Positions 10,353 through 31,506 of a DNA stretch of 64,000 nucleotides are shown here, in pieces. The DNA comes from Spirochaetaceae bacterium. GTDB taxonomy: Bacteria > Spirochaetota > Spirochaetia > DSM-27196 > Alkalispirochaetaceae. The notes below the pieces were generated by a model, which was not told the origin of the DNA, ran no database searches, and worked only from the letters and a program-made list of their open reading frames with translations. Location of the stretch: assembly GCA_007695175.1 (NCBI GenBank), contig REEH01000128.1:1-64000 (forward strand). The letters are read 5' to 3'. Each line of letters opens with the position of its first letter. Positions within the stretch are counted from its first letter, which is position 1. Both the position numbers and the translations under genes were made by a program.

Positions 10353-13300
10353 GTGTACGAACCGGTTGATCCCAAAGCCAGCTTTCCCGGGATGGAAGAG
10401 GAGATTCTCGCATTCTGGGAGGAAAACCGGATATTCGAGCAGTCGATCGAGCAGCGCAAGGGTGCGAGTCAGTTCGTCTTCTACGATGGCCCGCCATTTG
10501 CGACGGGACTGCCCCATTTCGGACACTTCGTTCCCGGTACAATCAAGGATATCATTCCCCGCTACCAGACGATGCTGGGCAAACACGTGGAACGGCGTTT
10601 CGGGTGGGATTGTCACGGCCTGCCGGTGGAATACGAAATGGAGAAGGAACTGGGCATTTCCGGCGCAGGCCAGATCCAGGAGTACGGCGTCGCGAAGTTC
10701 AACGAGGCTTGTCGCGGTATTGTGCTTCGGTATACGTCGGAATGGCGCCGGATCGTGACCAGGATGGGCCGCTGGGTTGATTTTGACCATGACTACAAAA
10801 CGATGGACCCCGATTATATGGAAACGATCTGGTGGGTCTTCAAACGGTTATGGGAAAAGGGTCTGATCTACGAGGGCCATTATATCCTGCCCTACAGCCC
10901 CGCCCTGGCAACGCCTCTTTCCAATTTCGAGGTTAATCTCGGAGGTTACCACGAGGTGGATGATCCGGCGATCACCGTCCGTTTTGAGCTGGAGGATCAG
11001 CCCGGTGTCTACATTCTCGCCTGGACGACGACTCCCTGGACACTGCCGAGCAACCTGGCCCTGGCGGTGGGAGAATCGATCCCGTACGTGCGTGTCCGGG
11101 ACGGCGGGGATACCTATATCCTGGCTGAATCCAGACTCCCGGCGTACTATCGGGAGGATGACCGGTACGAGATAGAGGAGCACCTGTCGGGGCGGGATCT
11201 CGCGGGATTGCGATACAAGCCCCTTTTCCCCTACTTCCAGGAACTGGGAGAACAGGGCGCATTCACGGTTCACACCGGCGATTTCGTAACGACCGAGGAC
11301 GGAACGGGGATCGTCCATATCGCGCCGGGCTTCGGCGAGGACGATTATAACCTCCTCAAGGACTCGGGTTTGCCCGTCGTTGTTCCTATCGATCCGGAGG
11401 CGCGTTTCACCGCGGAAGTCCCTGACTTTCAGGGAATGCAGGTCAAGGAGGCGGACAAGCATATCATCCGCCACCTGAAGGAGGCGGGCAAGCTGGTGAA
11501 ACGGGACACCTATCGCCACTCCTATCCCTTCTGCTACCGCACCCGGCAACCGCTTATTTATCGCGCCGTGAGCTCCTGGTTTGTGGACATCGGGAAGGTC
11601 AAGGAGAATATGCTCCGGGCCAACAGCAAGGTACACTGGGTACCCGGTCACCTGCGGGACGGACGTTTCGGCAAGTGGCTCGAGGGAGCCCGGGACTGGG
11701 CGATCAGCCGCAACCGATACTGGGGAAATCCCATACCGGTGTGGCGATGCGACGGGAGCGATCATGTAGAGGTAATCGGCTCCCGGGAGGAACTGCGGGA
11801 AAAGAGCGGCGTAGCCCTGGATGATCTGCACAAGCACTACGTGGACGAGATAACGTGGCCCAGTCCCGATGGAATGGGTACGATGCGACGCGTACCGGAA
11901 GTTCTGGACTGCTGGTTTGAATCGGGAGCAATGCCCTACGCGCAGAATCACTATCCCTTTGAAAACAAGGAATTCTTCGAGGCAAACTTTCCGGCTGATT
12001 TCATCTGCGAGGGGCTGGACCAGACGCGTGGATGGTTCTACACGCTCACTGTACTCGCGGCGGCGCTCTTTGATTCCCCCGCTTTTGAGAACTGCGTGAC
12101 CAACGGCCTCGTACTTGCTCCGGACGGTAAGAAAATGTCCAAAAGCGACCGGAACTACACGGACCCGCAGGAGGTTATCGACCGCTTTGGCGCGGATGCG
12201 CTGCGTCTCTTCCTGATGCATTCCGCCGTGGTGCGGGCGGAGGACCTGAAGTACACCGATGAGGGAGTCCGGGAAGTACTGAAAACCGTTATCATTCCCT
12301 ACTGGAACGCGTACAGCTTCTTCGTCACCTACGCGAACATCGATGGAATGACACCGTCCGGTCCGCCGGAGTCACCGGAGAACCCCCTGGACCGGTGGGT
12401 GCTCTCGGAGGCGGAGAAGCTGGTGGAAACGGTGCGGGCCCAGCTTGATGATTACGAGCTGCAGAAAGCGATTGATCCGATTGTGGCATTCATCGATTCA
12501 CTCAACAACTGGTATATCCGCCGTTCCCGTCGGCGCTTCTGGAAGAGCGAGAATGACGCGGACAAGGAACAGGCCTACGGCACCCTGTACAGCGTTCTGC
12601 GCACCCTTACGCTCGTGGCGGCCCCCATCATTCCTTTTATTACCGAGGCGATATATCGCAACATCCGGACTCCGGAGGATCCCCTTTCCGTGCATCTTTG
12701 CGATTACCCCCGGCCTGACGCGGCGCGGCGCGATCCGGAACTGGAACGGAAGATGGCGGTGACGCGACAGGCGGTGAGCCTGGGCCGTGCGATTCGCACG
12801 ATGCATAACCTCAAGATCCGACAGCCCCTGGCGGCCCTCCATCTTGTGACCCGTGATACCGGCGCCCGCCGGGTACTGCGGGAGATGGAGGACATAATCC
12901 GGGACGAGCTTAATGTGAAGGAAGTTGTCTTCCGGGAAAACGAGGAAGACCTGGTGGAATACAGTGCCAAGGCGAATTTCCGCGAACTTGGTCCTCGCCT
13001 GGGCAACCGTATGCGTGATGCCGCCCGGGTAATCGAGCAATTGAGTCCCCGGGAGATACAGCAGCTCCTGGATGGGGGCGCCCTCAGCATCGATCTCGCG
13101 GGAGAAACGGTGGAGATCACGAACGAAAGCGTTCTTGTGCAGCGGCGGGAAAAGGAAAACCTCAAGGTTCTGAACGAGGGATCGCTCACGGTGGCCCTGG
13201 ATCCGGAAGTCACGGAGGAGCTGCGACGGGAAGGGCTCGTAAGGGACCTGATCAGAGCGGTCCAGAATCTCCGCAAGGATCAGGGGCTGGAGGTGACGGA

Positions 13301-13475
13301 CCGCATCGTTCTCTCGATTGAGGCGGACGAGGAGCTGGCGGCGGCGGTCAACTCCTTTGAGGATTATCTCACCGGGGAGACCCTTGTGCAGGAACTGAAA
13401 TGGTCCGTCGACGGTGATGCTACGGAGATTGCTGTTGGCGATGCCACCGGCAGGATTGCCCTCACGCGCGCGTGA
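10353..13475 (+). CDS. ileS: isoleucyl-tRNA synthetase, long eukaryal-like (type 2) form
   Basis: Charges tRNA-Ile with isoleucine. 1040 residues. The class I signature is PPFATGLPHFGHF (HFGH variant of HIGH, about 48-59), and KMSKS is at about 594-598 followed by DRNY. The CP1 editing region contains TTPWTLPSNLAL. The N-terminus (FPGMEEEILAFWEENRIFEQS), the total length and the absence of a C-terminal CxxC zinc module match the type 2 IleRS group found in eukaryotes and some bacteria. That group includes the mupirocin-resistant enzymes. GTG start behind TAGGAGGAGAGA. The last 35 bases overlap the next ORF. Confidence 0.95.
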   Translation: MYEPVDPKASFPGMEEEILAFWEENRIFEQSIEQRKGASQFVFYDGPPFATGLPHFGHFVPGTIKDIIPRYQTMLGKHVERRFGWDCHGLPVEYEMEKELGISGAGQIQEYGVAKFNEACRGIVLRYTSEWRRIVTRMGRWVDFDHDYKTMDPDYMETIWWVFKRLWEKGLIYEGHYILPYSPALATPLSNFEVNLGGYHEVDDPAITVRFELEDQPGVYILAWTTTPWTLPSNLALAVGESIPYVRVRDGGDTYILAESRLPAYYREDDRYEIEEHLSGRDLAGLRYKPLFPYFQELGEQGAFTVHTGDFVTTEDGTGIVHIAPGFGEDDYNLLKDSGLPVVVPIDPEARFTAEVPDFQGMQVKEADKHIIRHLKEAGKLVKRDTYRHSYPFCYRTRQPLIYRAVSSWFVDIGKVKENMLRANSKVHWVPGHLRDGRFGKWLEGARDWAISRNRYWGNPIPVWRCDGSDHVEVIGSREELREKSGVALDDLHKHYVDEITWPSPDGMGTMRRVPEVLDCWFESGAMPYAQNHYPFENKEFFEANFPADFICEGLDQTRGWFYTLTVLAAALFDSPAFENCVTNGLVLAPDGKKMSKSDRNYTDPQEVIDRFGADALRLFLMHSAVVRAEDLKYTDEGVREVLKTVIIPYWNAYSFFVTYANIDGMTPSGPPESPENPLDRWVLSEAEKLVETVRAQLDDYELQKAIDPIVAFIDSLNNWYIRRSRRRFWKSENDADKEQAYGTLYSVLRTLTLVAAPIIPFITEAIYRNIRTPEDPLSVHLCDYPRPDAARRDPELERKMAVTRQAVSLGRAIRTMHNLKIRQPLAALHLVTRDTGARRVLREMEDIIRDELNVKEVVFRENEEDLVEYSAKANFRELGPRLGNRMRDAARVIEQLSPREIQQLLDGGALSIDLAGETVEITNESVLVQRREKENLKVLNEGSLTVALDPEVTEELRREGLVRDLIRAVQNLRKDQGLEVTDRIVLSIEADEELAAAVNSFEDYLTGETLVQELKWSVDGDATEIAVGDATGRIALTRA

Positions 13476-24296: not shown

Positions 24297-25391
24297 TCAG
24301 GCGCTTTCTTTGCCCTGGGCGGAGATAAAGTCGCGGTACTTCCCCGGGTCGGGCTGGAAGCCTACGATCCGTCCCGGAGTATCGATGCTGCGTTTCAATG
24401 CCGCCCGGCACTCCTTGAGAATTCTTTCCGCATCCACCAGCCGCGCTGCCCGGGACGCGAGGCCGCAGTAGAAGTCGGCTGACTCCCGGTTCCACGCTGC
24501 CCGCTGCTCCCAATAGTAGCGCTGAAACCGCTCGATGATACCGAGCGCCTCCCCCAGGGACGTATTGGGAATGATCACTGCCGCGCTCCGGGTGTCCACC
24601 TCAAAACAGAGGTCCCGAAAGGTGAAGAAGTTCCGGAGGGCTTCACTATTCTGCGTATCGATCTCATCGCCCCGGACGCCCTGGTTGAACTCCAGAATCG
24701 CCAGGGTCAGGTCCTGTTCGGAAAAACCGGCGCGCTCCAGCTCCGAATCGAGCCGTTCCGGGAGAAAACGCTCCTCAACGAGGAGGCGATCCGCTGCCGG
24801 GGGCTCCGGCGTCAGGGATTCCTCCCTCACCGCAACCGTTGCCGCTACGGGTCTCTCGGACGGGCCCGGTGTTTTCCGCGTTCTGACAAAGTGGATCAGC
24901 GCGACCAGAGCGACGATCAGGAGGAGTATAACCCCGGCAACCAGAGCGTCACGAACGATCGCGAAAACCAGGGCGCGCGGGAAAAGGGGATACACGGCGG
25001 TTATGATCCGCTTGTCACCCTGAGGCAACTCGAAGGTGCGTACGAAGCGGATGAACCCCCTCGGCGTGGGATGATCCAGCTCGCCCGGAAGGTACCGTTC
25101 ACTGGTCGTCCAGATGTAATCGTATACGTGATCAAAAGCCGCTATGCTCACCAGCTCAGGATGCACTCGAGCCGGCCTTCCAAGTCGCTCCGCCACGCGT
25201 TCCGCCGCTTCCTCAAGCGGGTGGGTCTGCCATAACTCCGCGAACTCCCGGGAAAGAAGCTGGAAATTCCGCGTCGCTTCCCGGTAACTGCTTTCCCGAA
25301 GGGTATCAAGACGCCACAGGATGGAAGCGGAAATGGCGACCAGGGCCAGGACGACCGCTATGATATAGGCGCGAAAAAGAAAGCGCTTCAT
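24297..25391 (-). CDS. membrane protein with degenerate GGDEF-like C-terminal domain
   Basis: 364 residues. One N-terminal membrane helix (about 7-26), an extracytoplasmic sensor-like region (about 27-125), a second helix (about 130-155) and a cytosolic part. The last about 150 residues have the outline of a diguanylate cyclase fold (DLTLAILEFNQG, then FYCGLASRAARLVDAERIL..AALKRS, then GRIVGF) but no GGDEF signature. It is therefore probably a non-catalytic nucleotide-binding or protein-interaction domain. Last gene of the operon starting at 31506, five bases after the DUF115 gene. The GGDEF relationship is inferred from pattern only. Confidence 0.7.
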   Translation of the reverse strand: MKRFLFRAYIIAVVLALVAISASILWRLDTLRESSYREATRNFQLLSREFAELWQTHPLEEAAERVAERLGRPARVHPELVSIAAFDHVYDYIWTTSERYLPGELDHPTPRGFIRFVRTFELPQGDKRIITAVYPLFPRALVFAIVRDALVAGVILLLIVALVALIHFVRTRKTPGPSERPVAATVAVREESLTPEPPAADRLLVEERFLPERLDSELERAGFSEQDLTLAILEFNQGVRGDEIDTQNSEALRNFFTFRDLCFEVDTRSAAVIIPNTSLGEALGIIERFQRYYWEQRAAWNRESADFYCGLASRAARLVDAERILKECRAALKRSIDTPGRIVGFQPDPGKYRDFISAQGKESA

Positions 25392-25396
25392 CTCGT

Positions 25397-27022
25397 TTAT
25401 GAGTATCGGCTATTTTCTGTGAAAATAAAACCCTGGATTTCCCGCAGAACGGCCTCCAGACCCGGGATGAACCGCCGGGACTGCTCCCTTTGCATCCGGG
25501 CCAGAAGCGGTACGTGTGCGACTCCGTGGGGGCCCAGCACGTTCCTGAGAGCGGTCGTGTCGGGGAGCGCTTCCGCCGGGCTGGAACGGAGGCGGGAAGC
25601 GACGTTGTCCAGCTCCATCAGGTGACGCCGCCAGAACTGGACGGGATCGAAACGCTCCCCGGAAGAGTGGCGTGGCCAATGGATCCGTGGTGAAGAGGAA
25701 AGGGCCTGGCGTATACGGCCTGCGCGTTCGCCCATGGCCGGTGAGGTGAAAAAGGGGGATCCTCCCTTTCGCTCTTCCTGCACCATGGAGGGGTAGACCT
25801 GCCGAGCGAAGAAGTGTGCCTGCGGGGAGAGCCGCGACGCCGCTCTGGCAGCGAGAGAATAATGGGCTGTGCCTCCGGCGTATGTTCGTGCACCGGGATA
25901 CCCTCCATCAGCCCCGATCAATTCGACTCGGGCTGCGCCCAGACCACGGGCAAGAAGAACTGCAGCCTCCGTGACGGAGTCGGGCGATTCCGGCAGAAGA
26001 AGACAGGGCGCACCGTGCGCGTAGAGAAGCTGGTGCAACGGGTGTGTCCCGGCGAACCAGACGGTCCCGGCCTCTTCGCTCCGGCGGGCCAGGGAGGGCG
26101 CGACGCCGAGATCGGCAAAGAGAACCGTCTCCGCGGAAATCCGTCCCCGCATGTGCATCACGCTCCATGGCTGGGGGTCCAGCGAAACAACCGCCTCCGT
26201 GGTGATACCGCGGCTCAAAAGGGCCGGCAGCGCCGTATCCACCGCGAAAAGGGGGGCCGTTCTCAATCGGGCCCGTTCCGCCGGCTGATCGAGAAAGGAA
26301 TCAAGACCCGGCCCCGCGGCCGCTACGAAGACGGTCTTGTCCGACAGGGCTTTTCCAATTCCGTGGAGCCGGGAGAAGAACTCCCCCTCGCTGCCCATGG
26401 AGTGTGAATTGTGGACGGAGTGAACGAGCCAGGGCCGGGCAAAGCGGCGAATGGTAATCGCCTGTTCAATCAGGTAGCGTGTCACTTCCTGTATCATGCC
26501 CCTGCAGGTCCGGAAGAAATCCCGGTTTTCCGGAAGCTCCGTCCACTGCGGAAGGTTGATCGTGCGGATACCGGAGCGCATCAGAGGCAGGTGAACATCC
26601 TGCAGTATCGGCGTGAGCAACTCCGGATCCACACAGAAGCGGATGCGTCCCGACCTGATCTGGGGGGAGAGATCGATTCGGGCCAGAATTGCCGCCAGCG
26701 TTCCCGGCGAGCGCTCGAGGGCAACAACCGTCGTCCCGGGACGGGAATCAATCACGGCGCGCGTCGTAAAGCCCCCGCCGACGCCGAGTATCACCACCGT
26801 AGCTGTTCCCTCGGGTACCGAGGAATCGATCAGGCGCGTAGCCTCCCTTCGGGGATCATACCGGGAGTGAAGAGCCCTGCCGGAGGCGGCGAACCCCGGT
26901 TGGCCATCCCTGGTCGTAACGGGCGTCAGCGCATCCGATGGCTGCTCCCGGGCTATCCTGTGCGCCAGGTCCCGTTGCACACCGGCAAGGGCCGCTACGT
27001 TCCCTTCCAGGACGCTTTTCAC
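25397..27022 (-). CDS. DUF115 (6-hydroxymethylpterin diphosphokinase MptE-like) family protein, second copy
   Basis: 541 residues from GTG 27022, which overlaps the stop of the first DUF115 gene (GTGA); the open frame upstream to 27799 is only overlap with that gene. The N-terminal LHSRYDPRREATRLI is shared with the neighbour. VVILGVGGGFTTRAV resembles a nucleotide-binding Rossmann start, and FVAAAGPGLDSFL plus the ELIGADGGYPGARTYAGG segment match the DUF115 core. In Campylobacter, Clostridium and Aeromonas, DUF115 (Maf-type) proteins are tied to flagellin glycosylation with nonulosonic acids. Spirochaetes carry relatives of uncertain function, so enzymatic activity is not claimed. Confidence 0.82.
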   Translation of the reverse strand: MKSVLEGNVAALAGVQRDLAHRIAREQPSDALTPVTTRDGQPGFAASGRALHSRYDPRREATRLIDSSVPEGTATVVILGVGGGFTTRAVIDSRPGTTVVALERSPGTLAAILARIDLSPQIRSGRIRFCVDPELLTPILQDVHLPLMRSGIRTINLPQWTELPENRDFFRTCRGMIQEVTRYLIEQAITIRRFARPWLVHSVHNSHSMGSEGEFFSRLHGIGKALSDKTVFVAAAGPGLDSFLDQPAERARLRTAPLFAVDTALPALLSRGITTEAVVSLDPQPWSVMHMRGRISAETVLFADLGVAPSLARRSEEAGTVWFAGTHPLHQLLYAHGAPCLLLPESPDSVTEAAVLLARGLGAARVELIGADGGYPGARTYAGGTAHYSLAARAASRLSPQAHFFARQVYPSMVQEERKGGSPFFTSPAMGERAGRIRQALSSSPRIHWPRHSSGERFDPVQFWRRHLMELDNVASRLRSSPAEALPDTTALRNVLGPHGVAHVPLLARMQREQSRRFIPGLEAVLREIQGFIFTENSRYS

Positions 27023-28584
27023 CGATAGTGCTCCACGATACGAAGCAGGCGGGCCGTAGCACGGCGCAGTTCCCCCCGAAGAGCATCCTTTGAATCCCCG
27101 CTTCGAAGCCACTGTACCGCTTCCACCGGGGCGAGGTGCAGGAGCAGATCCATTCCGGCGACAGTCAACGCCGGAGGCTCCGGCGTTTCCTCGATCTGCT
27201 CCCTCCAGCGCTTCAGCACACGGCGGGCGTGTTCCCTTCGGGTTGAACGACCCGGACGCTGCAGGACCGCGCGCGAAAAGTGCCCCGTCGGTACGGGCCC
27301 CGTCGGACAGGTCATGTCCGCCCAGACGGGGGAGGGTTCGAGAAAGGAAAGGGTCCCCGTCCTGGTGTGCTGTTCGATCAGCGTGGCGAGGGGTTCCCGG
27401 TATGACTCCAGAGAGGGTGTCTGCCACGCCGGGATCTCCCCGCCGTCGCGCAGAATTCTGGCTCCGGTAAGGTGGCCGGCCCGTCGCGAGCGGATCGTCT
27501 CCTCCGTCTCCAGACGACTGGTTCCATTCCGGATATACCGGTCGTTCCGGTGGGGTGAGGCGTGCCCGGCAAGACCCAGCGTACAGAGATCCAATCCGCA
27601 GAGCAGCAGGTGTCCGTCGGGGCGGAGGTGATGTGCGATCTGAACAAGAGAAGCACCCACCGTAGGCTGGTCCTCCTGCGGTATCCACTCGTCCCGGTCG
27701 GGGGCCAGCTCCTCGCCGAACCAGCCGGTACGGAAGAGATTTGCCCGGGACAATCTCCCCGTAGCGGCGCGCAGGGGCAGGGCGATGCCGGTCGTGCACG
27801 CCCCCGTATCCCCCATATACCTGCGCGCCCAGAACCCGCCGTCGGTATGCACCGCCAGATCCGTCTTGAAACCGCGATCGTTCAGCCAGGAGAGGGCGGA
27901 GGAGGCGGCCACGATCGGTACGCGGGCACGCTTCTCCCGGGGCACCAGCCGTTCCAGCGCACGCAGGCGTGGTCCCGCCGCAGCCACCACCAGACCATCC
28001 CCCGAAAACGCAACCGCTATCCGCTCATCCAGGGTCAGGGTTCTGCGCAGGGCGTTTGCCAGCCACGTCCGTCCGAAGGTGCCGATCGTGGCAAGTTCGG
28101 ATTTGAGATCCCGCAGTGCTGAAAGTACCGTTGCTTCCACCGTTTCGGTCCACCGGGGAATCGCCGTTTGTGCTCCGGTCCATGTAACTATCTGGAGGGA
28201 TGCAAGATGCAAAGGATGCATACGGGATCGGATTGTTCCGGGAGAGAGAGTTTCCGGTGCTTCCACGCTGCAGGAGACAGTGTCCCTGTCCGGGTGCTCC
28301 CGCGAGGTGTCATGGAGATCGGGGTCGCCCGTGATCACCGTCTCGCCGCCGGGCAGGGGCTCCACGGAGAGGGCGTGCATTTCCGGGAAACGGTTCCGCA
28401 GCTCCTCCCGTACGACTCCAGTTCCGTCGCCGATGAGGATCGATACACCTGCGGGAAACTCCGGCGCGAGGGACTGGACAAAGCGCTGCGCCTCGCGACG
28501 GGGATCGTATCGGGAATGCAGAAACCGTCCATCAATGCGAATGGTACGCTCGCCGGAACGAGCCTGCCCGTACTCAAATCTCAC
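27019..28584 (-). CDS. DUF115 (MptE-like) family protein, first copy
   Basis: 521 residues, GTG start overlapping the upstream gene by 11 bases. It shares FLHSRYDPRREAQRFV and the following SILIGDGTGVV with its downstream neighbour, and has the core LVVAAAGPRLRALE, HTDGGFWARR and LLLCGLDLCTLG. Its central region is less conserved than in the second copy, as expected for a diverged tandem duplicate. Same operon as the acidic protein, GAF-like protein and degenerate GGDEF protein, so a joint motility/envelope role is inferred. Confidence 0.8.
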   Translation of the reverse strand: MRFEYGQARSGERTIRIDGRFLHSRYDPRREAQRFVQSLAPEFPAGVSILIGDGTGVVREELRNRFPEMHALSVEPLPGGETVITGDPDLHDTSREHPDRDTVSCSVEAPETLSPGTIRSRMHPLHLASLQIVTWTGAQTAIPRWTETVEATVLSALRDLKSELATIGTFGRTWLANALRRTLTLDERIAVAFSGDGLVVAAAGPRLRALERLVPREKRARVPIVAASSALSWLNDRGFKTDLAVHTDGGFWARRYMGDTGACTTGIALPLRAATGRLSRANLFRTGWFGEELAPDRDEWIPQEDQPTVGASLVQIAHHLRPDGHLLLCGLDLCTLGLAGHASPHRNDRYIRNGTSRLETEETIRSRRAGHLTGARILRDGGEIPAWQTPSLESYREPLATLIEQHTRTGTLSFLEPSPVWADMTCPTGPVPTGHFSRAVLQRPGRSTRREHARRVLKRWREQIEETPEPPALTVAGMDLLLHLAPVEAVQWLRSGDSKDALRGELRRATARLLRIVEHYR

Positions 28585-29635
28585 GGAGGAATTGTTCAGC
28601 GTCCAGGGGTTTGTGGGTCAGGGGTGTCACGGGAACGATGCCGAAAAGCTGTTGAAGCGTATTCCCGAGCAAATGGAGGAGCAGCTCCGCATCGAGATGC
28701 GGGTTGGCGAGGCCCGCGAGAACGAAGTCCCCGCTTCCCTGATGCAGGAGCGTATAATAGTCGGCGCAGAGGAGCGCACACGTTCCAAGCAGATCGTTGA
28801 GCAGGTAGCTCGGATCCATGTGAGGATGAGCCTGACGGATCGTCTCGTAGATCGGGAGCAGCGAAACATGGAGAAGTACCAGATCCTGGTTCGTCCCGGC
28901 CGCCCGCTCCTTCAGCCGCGCTATAACATGTGGTGCGTGTACCTTGTCCAGCACGGTTACGCGCTTGGCCGCGGAAAAAGGTTTCTGGCGCCCGTCAAAG
29001 AGCAGGTATCCCGCCCGTTCCGAGAACGCCGCGAGCAGTACGTCAAGCACGTCCAGATCAAGTTCCAGCAGGGGAGAGTCAAATACAAGCAGCACCGCCA
29101 GGATCTCCCGGTTATAGAAGAATGGCAACGCCGCAATCCGGTTGCGTCGTGAAAACTCGCCGGCGGAAAGAAAGGGTTTGAGCAGATCCCGATCGATACC
29201 CTCAAGCGTTACGGCCCCGACTCGGCGGCAGATCTTCTGGATAGTTGCGCCCGGGATACGCAGGCGAAAACGGCTCGTGCTGTCCAGGCCGACTGTTGCC
29301 ATGGGTGAGTAAGCATCCTTGCCCGGCTCCTGAACGAGGATTGTTCCGCTGGTTACGTGCAGGTGTCGGTGAAGGATGGAAAAAAGGTGGGACGGTGAGA
29401 CGATCCCCGGATCGTGCTTTCCGTGGATTTCCTTGAGGAGCGCGCGAACCGCCGCTCCGGTATCGACTGACTGGCTCTCCGACGTCTTCTCGTGCGCTCC
29501 GCTGCGTACGTCCTCGTTCCCGGTCCGTTCGTCCTCGGCGGAGGGGTCCTCCCGAGCCGGGCCGCGCATGAGCAGAGCCCGGGAGAGGGGAGAGTTGTTG
29601 TCATCGGGTAAGGTCAATCGTTCAAGCAGTCCCAT
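28574..29635 (-). CDS. GAF-like domain protein, unknown function
   Basis: 353 residues, cytosolic. A disordered, charged N-terminus (about 1-60) is followed by a probable GAF fold (about 80-205: LFSILHRHLHVTSGTILVQEP, then IAALPFFYNREILAVLLVFD). A second alpha/beta region (about 225-340: RVTVLDKVHAPHVIARL, then GDFVLAGLANPHLDAELLLH) is unrecognised. No kinase, cyclase or helix-turn-helix motif. It starts 14 bases after the acidic protein gene and overlaps the first DUF115 gene. Confidence 0.65.
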   Translation of the reverse strand: MGLLERLTLPDDNNSPLSRALLMRGPAREDPSAEDERTGNEDVRSGAHEKTSESQSVDTGAAVRALLKEIHGKHDPGIVSPSHLFSILHRHLHVTSGTILVQEPGKDAYSPMATVGLDSTSRFRLRIPGATIQKICRRVGAVTLEGIDRDLLKPFLSAGEFSRRNRIAALPFFYNREILAVLLVFDSPLLELDLDVLDVLLAAFSERAGYLLFDGRQKPFSAAKRVTVLDKVHAPHVIARLKERAAGTNQDLVLLHVSLLPIYETIRQAHPHMDPSYLLNDLLGTCALLCADYYTLLHQGSGDFVLAGLANPHLDAELLLHLLGNTLQQLFGIVPVTPLTHKPLDAEQFLREI

Positions 29636-29649
29636 GGTCGGGCCCGCCG

Positions 29650-31506
29650 TCAGGTTTCGAGACCGAGCTCTTCAAAGAGGTGCTTGTAAACCTCGAAATG
29701 CTCGGACTGGGCAAACTCCTCGATTTTGTCATCCGGGAGAGCTTCCAGGAGCTGGTCCATGTAACTGAGAACGGAACGGATTTCCTGCTTCAGATCCTCC
29801 GGCAAATCCGCGATCGAGGCTCGCCGCGGCAAGGGAGACTCTTCGTCCGCTTCGTTCGAAACGATTTCAAGGTCAAAATCGAGGTGCTTCTCCGGCGTTA
29901 CATCGCCACCCTCATCGGCATCATCAGCCGGGGGCTCCCCGAAGTCTTCCTCGGAATCGGCGGCACCAACCTCCAGGTCGTGTTCCACGGCGGCGGCAAA
30001 ATCGTCAAATCCCTCGTCGTCTCCGGCGGCAACATCCTTGTCCGTTACGACCAGGTCGTCCTCGTCGTCGATTTCCAGCACCAGATCGTCATCCTCGGCT
30101 GGCACGGTGTCGACCGGGGGTTCTTCGAGCTGGATCTCGTCCTCAAGCTGGATATCGTCCAGTTCGAGCTCGTCGTCGGCGGGCTCGTCATCGTCGAGCT
30201 GGATCTCGTCCTCGTCCTCAAGCTGGATATCGTCCAGTTCGAGCTCGTCGTCGGCGGGCTCGTCCGCGGTCGTATCGACCGGAGAATCGACCCCGGCAAG
30301 GTCTTCCTCATCAAGATCGAGATCGTCGATCGCGGTATCCTCCGAGATATCCTCGGTGGTCTCCCCCATATCGTCCAGCGCATCCAGATCAAGTTCAATC
30401 TCATCCAGAGATTCATCGGTTTCCGCTTCAGTTTCATCCTGAAGAGACTCGATTCCGGCGAGCTCCTGATCGATGTCCATATCCGCAAGCTCATCAACGG
30501 CGGAGTCTTCACCCTCGAGGACGAAGGATGCAGGCTCTTCCTTCTCCTCCTGCTCGATCAGAAAATCGTCATCCAGCTGCTCCGCCTCGCCTACTTCCTC
30601 GGTAAACTCGGCGGTGTTGAGAATGTTGTCGAGTTCGTCACCGGTAAGGGCGATCGTCTCGTCTTCCTCGTCCTCGAAAAAGCCCGTACCTCCGGCCTGG
30701 GTACCGTCCTCGTCCTCTCCGAAGTCGTCCGTCAGGTCCGTGTGGACTTCATCCCGCTGCGCCGGGATCTCCCGGGGTATCGAGGATGTCCCGCGGAGTA
30801 CTTCCTTGAGTTCCGCCAGCTCCCGTTTGATGTCGGTCAACTCACTCTGTATGCGATCAAATGCCTCGCGTTCCTGAACGTCCATTGATGATGGTATAGC
30901 ACTTTCGGCGGGAATTTGCAAATCACCGGTCTCGGATTCGGACTCATCTTCCTCTTCCCGCAGAAATTCCTCTTCATCGGGGGAAATGATGTTTCGGGCG
31001 CTTTCGGGGACTATCTCTATCCCCTGATCCTCGGGCGTAAAACCGTGTTCGTCCGTGCCCAGATCCTCGTCCAGATCCTCGTCCAGTTCCGGGAGTGTTT
31101 CGGAGGATGGCTCGTCGATGTCCTCAAGAGTGATTTCCTCTATCTCCTCATCAGAACCGGGCATCGATTGATCAAAGCCCCCCTCCACGGCATCGTCCAG
31201 ATCCAGATTCTCGAAGTCGTCGTCCAGGCTTTCATTCAGGGAATCCAGGTCGAAGCCTTCCTCTCCGTCGTCCTCTACAAGGTCAAAGGGATCAGCTTCC
31301 TCGGTGGGCTCTTCAATATCGAGATCATCGAGAGAAACCAGGCCATCCTCCTCGTCCGGGAGATCGGGATAAGCCGCTTCCTCCTCCAGATCCATCATCG
31401 AGAAGCCCTCATCGGCCTCCAGGACCTCTTCCGGTCCTGCTTTCACCCAGACGCCGTAACGCTCAAAATCCTGATCCTGAATATCCTGGTTTCTCTGTTC
31501 GTCCAT
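29650..31506 (-). CDS. very acidic, low-complexity repeat protein
   Basis: 618 residues, dominated by Asp/Glu, with almost no Cys. A predicted coiled coil lies near 205-235 (DRIQSELTDIKRELAELKEV). A duplicated block DEPADDELELDDIQLEDE occurs near 440-480. A conserved-looking folded C-terminus (about 565-618: DLPEDLKQEIRSVLSYMDQ, then EHFEVYKHLFEELG) may be the functional module. No signal peptide. ATG start with GGGAG seven bases upstream. First gene of the five-gene minus-strand operon; a scaffold role is a guess. Confidence 0.75.
   Translation of the reverse strand: MDEQRNQDIQDQDFERYGVWVKAGPEEVLEADEGFSMMDLEEEAAYPDLPDEEDGLVSLDDLDIEEPTEEADPFDLVEDDGEEGFDLDSLNESLDDDFENLDLDDAVEGGFDQSMPGSDEEIEEITLEDIDEPSSETLPELDEDLDEDLGTDEHGFTPEDQGIEIVPESARNIISPDEEEFLREEEDESESETGDLQIPAESAIPSSMDVQEREAFDRIQSELTDIKRELAELKEVLRGTSSIPREIPAQRDEVHTDLTDDFGEDEDGTQAGGTGFFEDEEDETIALTGDELDNILNTAEFTEEVGEAEQLDDDFLIEQEEKEEPASFVLEGEDSAVDELADMDIDQELAGIESLQDETEAETDESLDEIELDLDALDDMGETTEDISEDTAIDDLDLDEEDLAGVDSPVDTTADEPADDELELDDIQLEDEDEIQLDDDEPADDELELDDIQLEDEIQLEEPPVDTVPAEDDDLVLEIDDEDDLVVTDKDVAAGDDEGFDDFAAAVEHDLEVGAADSEEDFGEPPADDADEGGDVTPEKHLDFDLEIVSNEADEESPLPRRASIADLPEDLKQEIRSVLSYMDQLLEALPDDKIEEFAQSEHFEVYKHLFEELGLET
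30127..30263. repeat. tandem duplication inside the acidic protein gene
   Basis: Two nearly identical units (30127-30189 and 30195-30263); the second carries a 6-base insertion that keeps the frame. It encodes the doubled ELELDDIQLEDE block and suggests recent slippage or unequal crossing over. Confidence 0.75.

Follow-up and report, generated by a model that had tools for sequence, protein, structure and literature searches.

What would bring together, in one operon of a spirochaete, a strongly acidic protein, a GAF-like protein, two DUF115 proteins and a membrane protein with a cyclase-like domain? The five genes lie in the order ACID, GAF-like, D1, D2, MP, all on the minus strand of the window analysed here, a stretch of 64,000 nucleotides from a Spirochaetaceae bacterium (Table 1). 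Successive genes are set apart by +14, -11, -4 and +5 nucleotides, a spacing that suggests co-expression, and the five genes and four junctions are reproduced here as the first-pass annotation had given them. The start of D2 is best placed at the GTG codon at 27022, where the homologues align; the start at 27799 in the list of open reading frames is an over-extension. An Rfam search returned zero matches, and no sugar-biosynthesis gene was identified within the operon.

Table 1. Genes, domains and conserved motifs of the operon (positions in the window)
Feature	Position	Strand	Remarks
ACID gene	29650..31506	-	618 aa; first gene of the operon; acidic, disordered-looking scaffold candidate
GAF + degenerate GGDEF protein	28574..29635	-	353 aa, cytoplasmic; AlphaFold2, profile and Foldseek matches
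D1, Maf/DUF115 paralogue 1	27019..28584	-	521 aa; GTG start; DUF115 domain 28011-27580
D2, Maf/DUF115 paralogue 2	25397..27022	-	541 aa; GTG start; DUF115 domain 26380-25895
MP, membrane protein with degenerate GGDEF	24297..25391	-	364 aa; AlphaFold2 and profile matches
ACID N-terminal conserved motif ELExYGVWVKxGPEDV	31423..31470	-	homologue alignment
ACID short coil motif LxxIxxELSxIKxELxxLK	30787..30852	-	homologue alignment
ACID central motif GFFEDEEDETIALTGDELDNILNTAEFTEE	30592..30684	-	homologue alignment; resembles FliM N-terminal peptide, a lead only
ACID C-terminal conserved segment LPxxLKxEIRSVLSYMDQLLESLPEEKIEEFAxSEHFxxYKxLFEELGL	29653..29820	-	alignment; found phylum-wide
Degenerate GGDEF region, GAF protein	28607..28945	-	model residues 231-343; RxxD and GG[DE]EF not conserved
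Degenerate GGDEF domain, MP	24357..24773	-	residues 207-345; own conserved GxSSRxGRLVxxxRLxxEA segment

Conservation of the gene order

With profiles seeded by the window proteins we compared homologous loci from 39 Spirochaetia genomes, a biased sample in that each was chosen for a match to the GAF protein or D2, and found ACID, D1 and D2 together in 38 of them. All five families were detected by profile in 22/39, the GAF slot is filled by an open reading frame of similar size in eight more, and some of the absences of MP fall at contig ends. The gene order is kept across the class, and on this ground we reject a chance adjacency of the five genes; the separation in relatives that the first-pass annotation had named as a ground for giving up the idea of a system was thus looked for, and the linkage proved tight. 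One of the loci with all five families (L103) comes from a genome of a single 1.14-Mb contig, most probably that of Treponema pallidum, in which flagellin genes are located at 860 kb and 949 kb, so that the operon has been kept even in a very reduced treponeme genome. We note that in several relatives D2 and MP are parted by a gene of the Memo family (PF01875) in opposite orientation (L076:10733-11569, L087:8033-8869), and that a strong homologue (56-61% identity) of a window gene of about 1040 codons at 10353-13475 is found next to the operon in several genomes of Treponema-like type.

Outside the class, the gene after ACID usually encodes a larger protein with GAF and/or GGDEF domains, likewise lacking GG[DE]EF, and genes of the D1/D2 type were found near ACID in two loci (L214, L218). 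ACID is also seen directly downstream of F1 ATP synthase genes in further classes of the phylum (L216:12277-14127, L212:6625-8040), and in one outgroup locus a gene of the FapA (flagellar assembly protein A) family is found two genes downstream of ACID (L213:7406-8275).

Maf-type paralogues, degenerate GGDEF proteins and an acidic chain

The domain PF01973 scores 61 bits on D2; on D1 its hmmscan score of 32.2 is slightly under the cut-off of 34.6, and the genome search places it above. Searched against solved structures, a joint D1+D2 profile matches the Magnetospirillum flagellin glycosyltransferase Maf best (5mu5, E 2e-25), over two regions, the N-terminal one and DUF115. Both proteins hence carry the DUF115/PF01973 core together with the Maf-type N-terminal domain that defines the Maf family, and by profile they belong with Aeromonas Maf1, Campylobacter Maf and Clostridium botulinum CbMaf as well. 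As in those systems, D1 and D2 are coupled to flagella, here by phyletic pattern; they differ in being two diverged copies in tandem, held constantly in one operon beside a candidate scaffold and two proteins with dead GGDEF domains. The tandem DUF115 pair of the first-pass annotation therefore stands, while its "MptE-like" is a Pfam label only, Maf being the closer relative. Our literature search, of partial coverage and with most subscription papers outside it, returned no account of a DUF115, MptE-like or Maf system in spirochaetes, nor of any Maf system partnered by a scaffold and dead-GGDEF proteins; the enzymes are thus of a known kind, and the arrangement around them appears undescribed in the literature searched.

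The AlphaFold2 model of the GAF protein (pLDDT 87.1) has an N-terminal GAF domain and a C-terminal GGDEF fold. Profile matches include 3ci6 for the GAF part, 3e0y, and 3icl for the GGDEF part (E 0.009), and Foldseek places the two-domain cyclase 4zmu on top, with 3ci6 and PelD (4etx, E 2e-4) also among its matches. The GAF-like sensor expected from the first reading is thus borne out as a predicted fold, although a second degenerate GGDEF domain at its C-terminus had been overlooked, so that the operon encodes two dead cyclase-like proteins. The order GAF, then GGDEF is that of PelD and Dcsbis, and the GGDEF domain of PelD is degenerate as well; unlike those proteins, the one described here is short and soluble, with no transmembrane segments and without a conserved canonical RxxD I-site, and its partners are Maf rather than Pel genes.

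In MP, the model (pLDDT 89.8) predicts a transmembrane helix, a small beta domain that is probably periplasmic, a second transmembrane helix, a linker and a GGDEF fold, the last matched by profile to the diguanylate cyclases GcbC (2e-9) and PleD (1e-7). MP has the fold in common with these cyclases and lacks both GG[DE]EF and a conserved RxxD, conserving instead residues of its own (G310, R314, R317, R323, E327), and a membrane protein with a non-catalytic cyclase-like domain, as first described, is therefore real. The GG[DE]EF active-site motif is absent from both proteins in the aligned relatives and, by a loose pattern, from 13 outgroup partner proteins too. At the I-site, the R is unconserved and the D often kept in MP, and neither is conserved in the GAF protein. 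With these motifs absent, we reject an active diguanylate cyclase or an I-site c-di-GMP receptor for either protein; because the canonical sites are lost, c-di-GMP probably does not bind there. Compared with known structures, the proteins of the operon thus show signalling and Maf folds and not the housekeeping folds that would have told against a dedicated system.

ACID is composed to 39% of D and E, has a net charge of -220 and matches no family in Pfam or NCBIfam. Alignment of its homologues resolves four conserved short motifs set apart by variable acidic linkers. The "very acidic coil" of the first-pass annotation is accordingly right as to acidity and wrong as to coil, which describes one of the four motifs alone: coiled-coil peptides, matched by that short motif, are the sole PDB matches of the protein, and the C-terminus gave nothing convincing against the PDB (best 0.047). 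The core of the central motif, TIALTGDELDNIL, is found in up to 6 copies in the ACID proteins of other classes, where about none would be expected in shuffled sequences.

Coupling to flagella

Among 158 Spirochaetia genomes, 125 have flagellin and 33, spanning about six families, do not. The ACID C-terminus was detected in 98/125 of the former and in 5/33 of the latter, two of those five being partial only (Fisher p 3e-11, or 1e-14 without the 13 Borreliaceae; both values are descriptive, because the genomes share kinship). Over the phylum, the C-terminal block is present in 151/198 genomes. DUF115 of any group occurs in 2/33 flagellin-less Spirochaetia against 185/198 phylum genomes, 197/198 of these being flagellin-bearing, so that it follows flagella across genomes with the Borreliaceae as the exception. 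The same coupling is seen within a single family (f9), in which a flagellin-bearing genome keeps the whole operon (L209 of G298), and in a flagellin-less genus ACID is missing or reduced to short remnants. On this phyletic link we reject a housekeeping operon. About 14 flagellated genomes other than Borrelia have no detectable ACID C-terminus, some of them perhaps through incompleteness of the genome, and most of one genus (g25, probably Brachyspira) have DUF115 with ACID weak or absent.

In the Borreliaceae (f6, assigned to this family on genome size and gene content), where flagellin is present, ACID and DUF115 were both undetected. This absence parallels the published chemistry of the flagellins: according to papers that cite the primary work, the flagellin of B. 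burgdorferi is reported as unglycosylated (Sterba 2008, cited in PMC6127242), the flagellins of T. pallidum as glycosylated (Wyss 1998, cited in PMC13144727), and the FlaB glycan of T. denticola as essential to filament assembly and motility (Kurniyati 2017, cited in PMC9481697). Loss together with flagella, and absence from a family whose one studied flagellin is reported as unglycosylated, therefore make this probably a module dedicated to coating flagellin with sugar.

One flagellin-less family (f62, genomes G249 and G297) has adjacent ACID and MP genes without GAF, D1 or D2, and retains divergent FliG and FliM. The role of ACID and MP must therefore extend beyond serving D1 and D2, and it is perhaps at the flagellar base, or a derivative of it, that this role outlives glycosylation. 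We note that the two genomes (loci L239 of G297 and L240 of G249) possibly possess a motor without a filament, or an apparatus of derived type.

A proposed module for flagellin glycosylation

We suggest, and consider it reasonably likely, that the operon is a spirochaetal flagellar-biogenesis module for the glycosylation of flagellin in the cytoplasm, one that is membrane-anchored and possibly signal-gated. A signalling-controlled glycosylation or motility module had been proposed at the outset; the Maf-type transferases, the dead-GGDEF and GAF proteins and the coupling to flagella all fit it, and the signalling control, like the enzymatic role, the substrate and the scaffold role, is what we infer. 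The flagellin profile is a correlation, and the partners would interact within the module in the following way. D2 and its diverged paralogue D1 would add sugar to FlaB while it is still in the cytoplasm, awaiting export, as Maf proteins do elsewhere; in Aeromonas, Maf glycosylates flagellin in the cytoplasm, before the chaperone binds (PMC4065374). MP would tether the complex to the inner membrane and may monitor the periplasm, the compartment that houses the filament; a cytoplasmic signal would be sensed by the GAF protein, and both dead GGDEF domains may act as docking or regulatory modules. ACID would serve as a flexible scaffold with one partner bound at each of its short motifs, and would thereby gather the transferases, the sensors and flagellin (or the flagellar base) in one place.

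Such a module would supply candidate transferases and likely organisers for a flagellin glycan of the T. denticola type, for which the literature searched, with partial coverage, holds no paper naming the transferases, and it opens the question of the flagellin transferase to tests in treponemes that can be cultured. The module would further exemplify the joint retention, across a phylum, of an acidic scaffold and a GGDEF protein devoid of catalysis.

A wider proposal, which we advance tentatively and with less confidence than the module itself, is that of an undescribed flagellar hub ancestral to the phylum, made of an intrinsically disordered acidic scaffold, in which FliM-like peptides recur, and of partner proteins with dead GGDEF domains; in the Spirochaetia this hub has recruited the tandem Maf pair and couples flagellin glycosylation to a periplasmic or cytoplasmic signal and to the flagellar base. 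The peptides in question are those of the ACID core: LTGDELDNILN resembles the FliM N-terminus LSQDEIDQLLT, and the pattern L[ST]xxE[IL]Dx[IL]L recalls the CheY-binding peptide of FliM/FliY, from which the ACID copy differs in being embedded in a scaffold-like chain, in being repeated in some classes and in lacking the conserved Q. In a scan of 1782 open reading frames with the FliM consensus (LSQxEIDxLL) the ACID proteins rank high, the window motif scoring 13.5, but shuffled acidic proteins (mean 6.5, sd 2.9) reach a maximum of 19.8; with a score within reach of shuffled acidic sequence, the likeness is statistically weak and a lead only, and it could be chance or convergence.

The same evidence bears on a distinct and rather unlikely reading, in which ACID and MP work chiefly for the flagellar switch or the export gate, for instance by showing FliM-like peptides to CheY, and D1 and D2 are clients that prepare flagellin by glycosylation or otherwise. 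The copy number of the core in other classes, the retention of ACID and MP beside divergent FliM and FliG where flagellin, GAF, D1 and D2 are missing, and the phylum-wide pairing of ACID with a GAF/GGDEF protein, with D1/D2 adjacent or not, would all agree with it; the weak FliM score, and the lack of ACID in Borreliaceae despite their flagellar switch, speak against it. We regard as improbable a module akin to PelD/Pel for the envelope or a surface polysaccharide, in which Maf-like transferases under dead-GGDEF control modify a glycan or an envelope protein: the GAF protein does share its architecture with PelD and MP is membrane-anchored in its model, but parts of the operon are lost alongside flagellin in several families and are absent in Borreliaceae, and genes for a polymerase, for export or for other envelope-glycan functions are missing from it. 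That D1 and D2 are MptE-like pterin pyrophosphokinases in a metabolic operon, as the Pfam name and a weak likeness to solved MptE chains (5e-7) might suggest, deserves hardly any credence given the far better match to Maf over two regions and the flagella-linked phyletic pattern.

It counts against the glycosylation module that two further DUF115 groups could be the FlaB transferases instead of D1 and D2. Each of five genomes compared has four DUF115 groups, namely D1, D2, a C152 type and a C105 type, and each clusters in the DUF115 tree, with support of 0.99-1.00 for D1, D2 and the C105 type and with the C152 type as the remaining branch. Genes of the last two types are sited away from the operon in every genome examined. 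In the genome of the window itself, the third Maf-like gene (C152, L105:8719-10551) adjoins a PASTA-domain penicillin-binding protein and a signal-peptidase-like open reading frame, about 19 kb from fliM, and the fourth (C105, L106:8891-10726) adjoins a SurA/PPIase-type protein.
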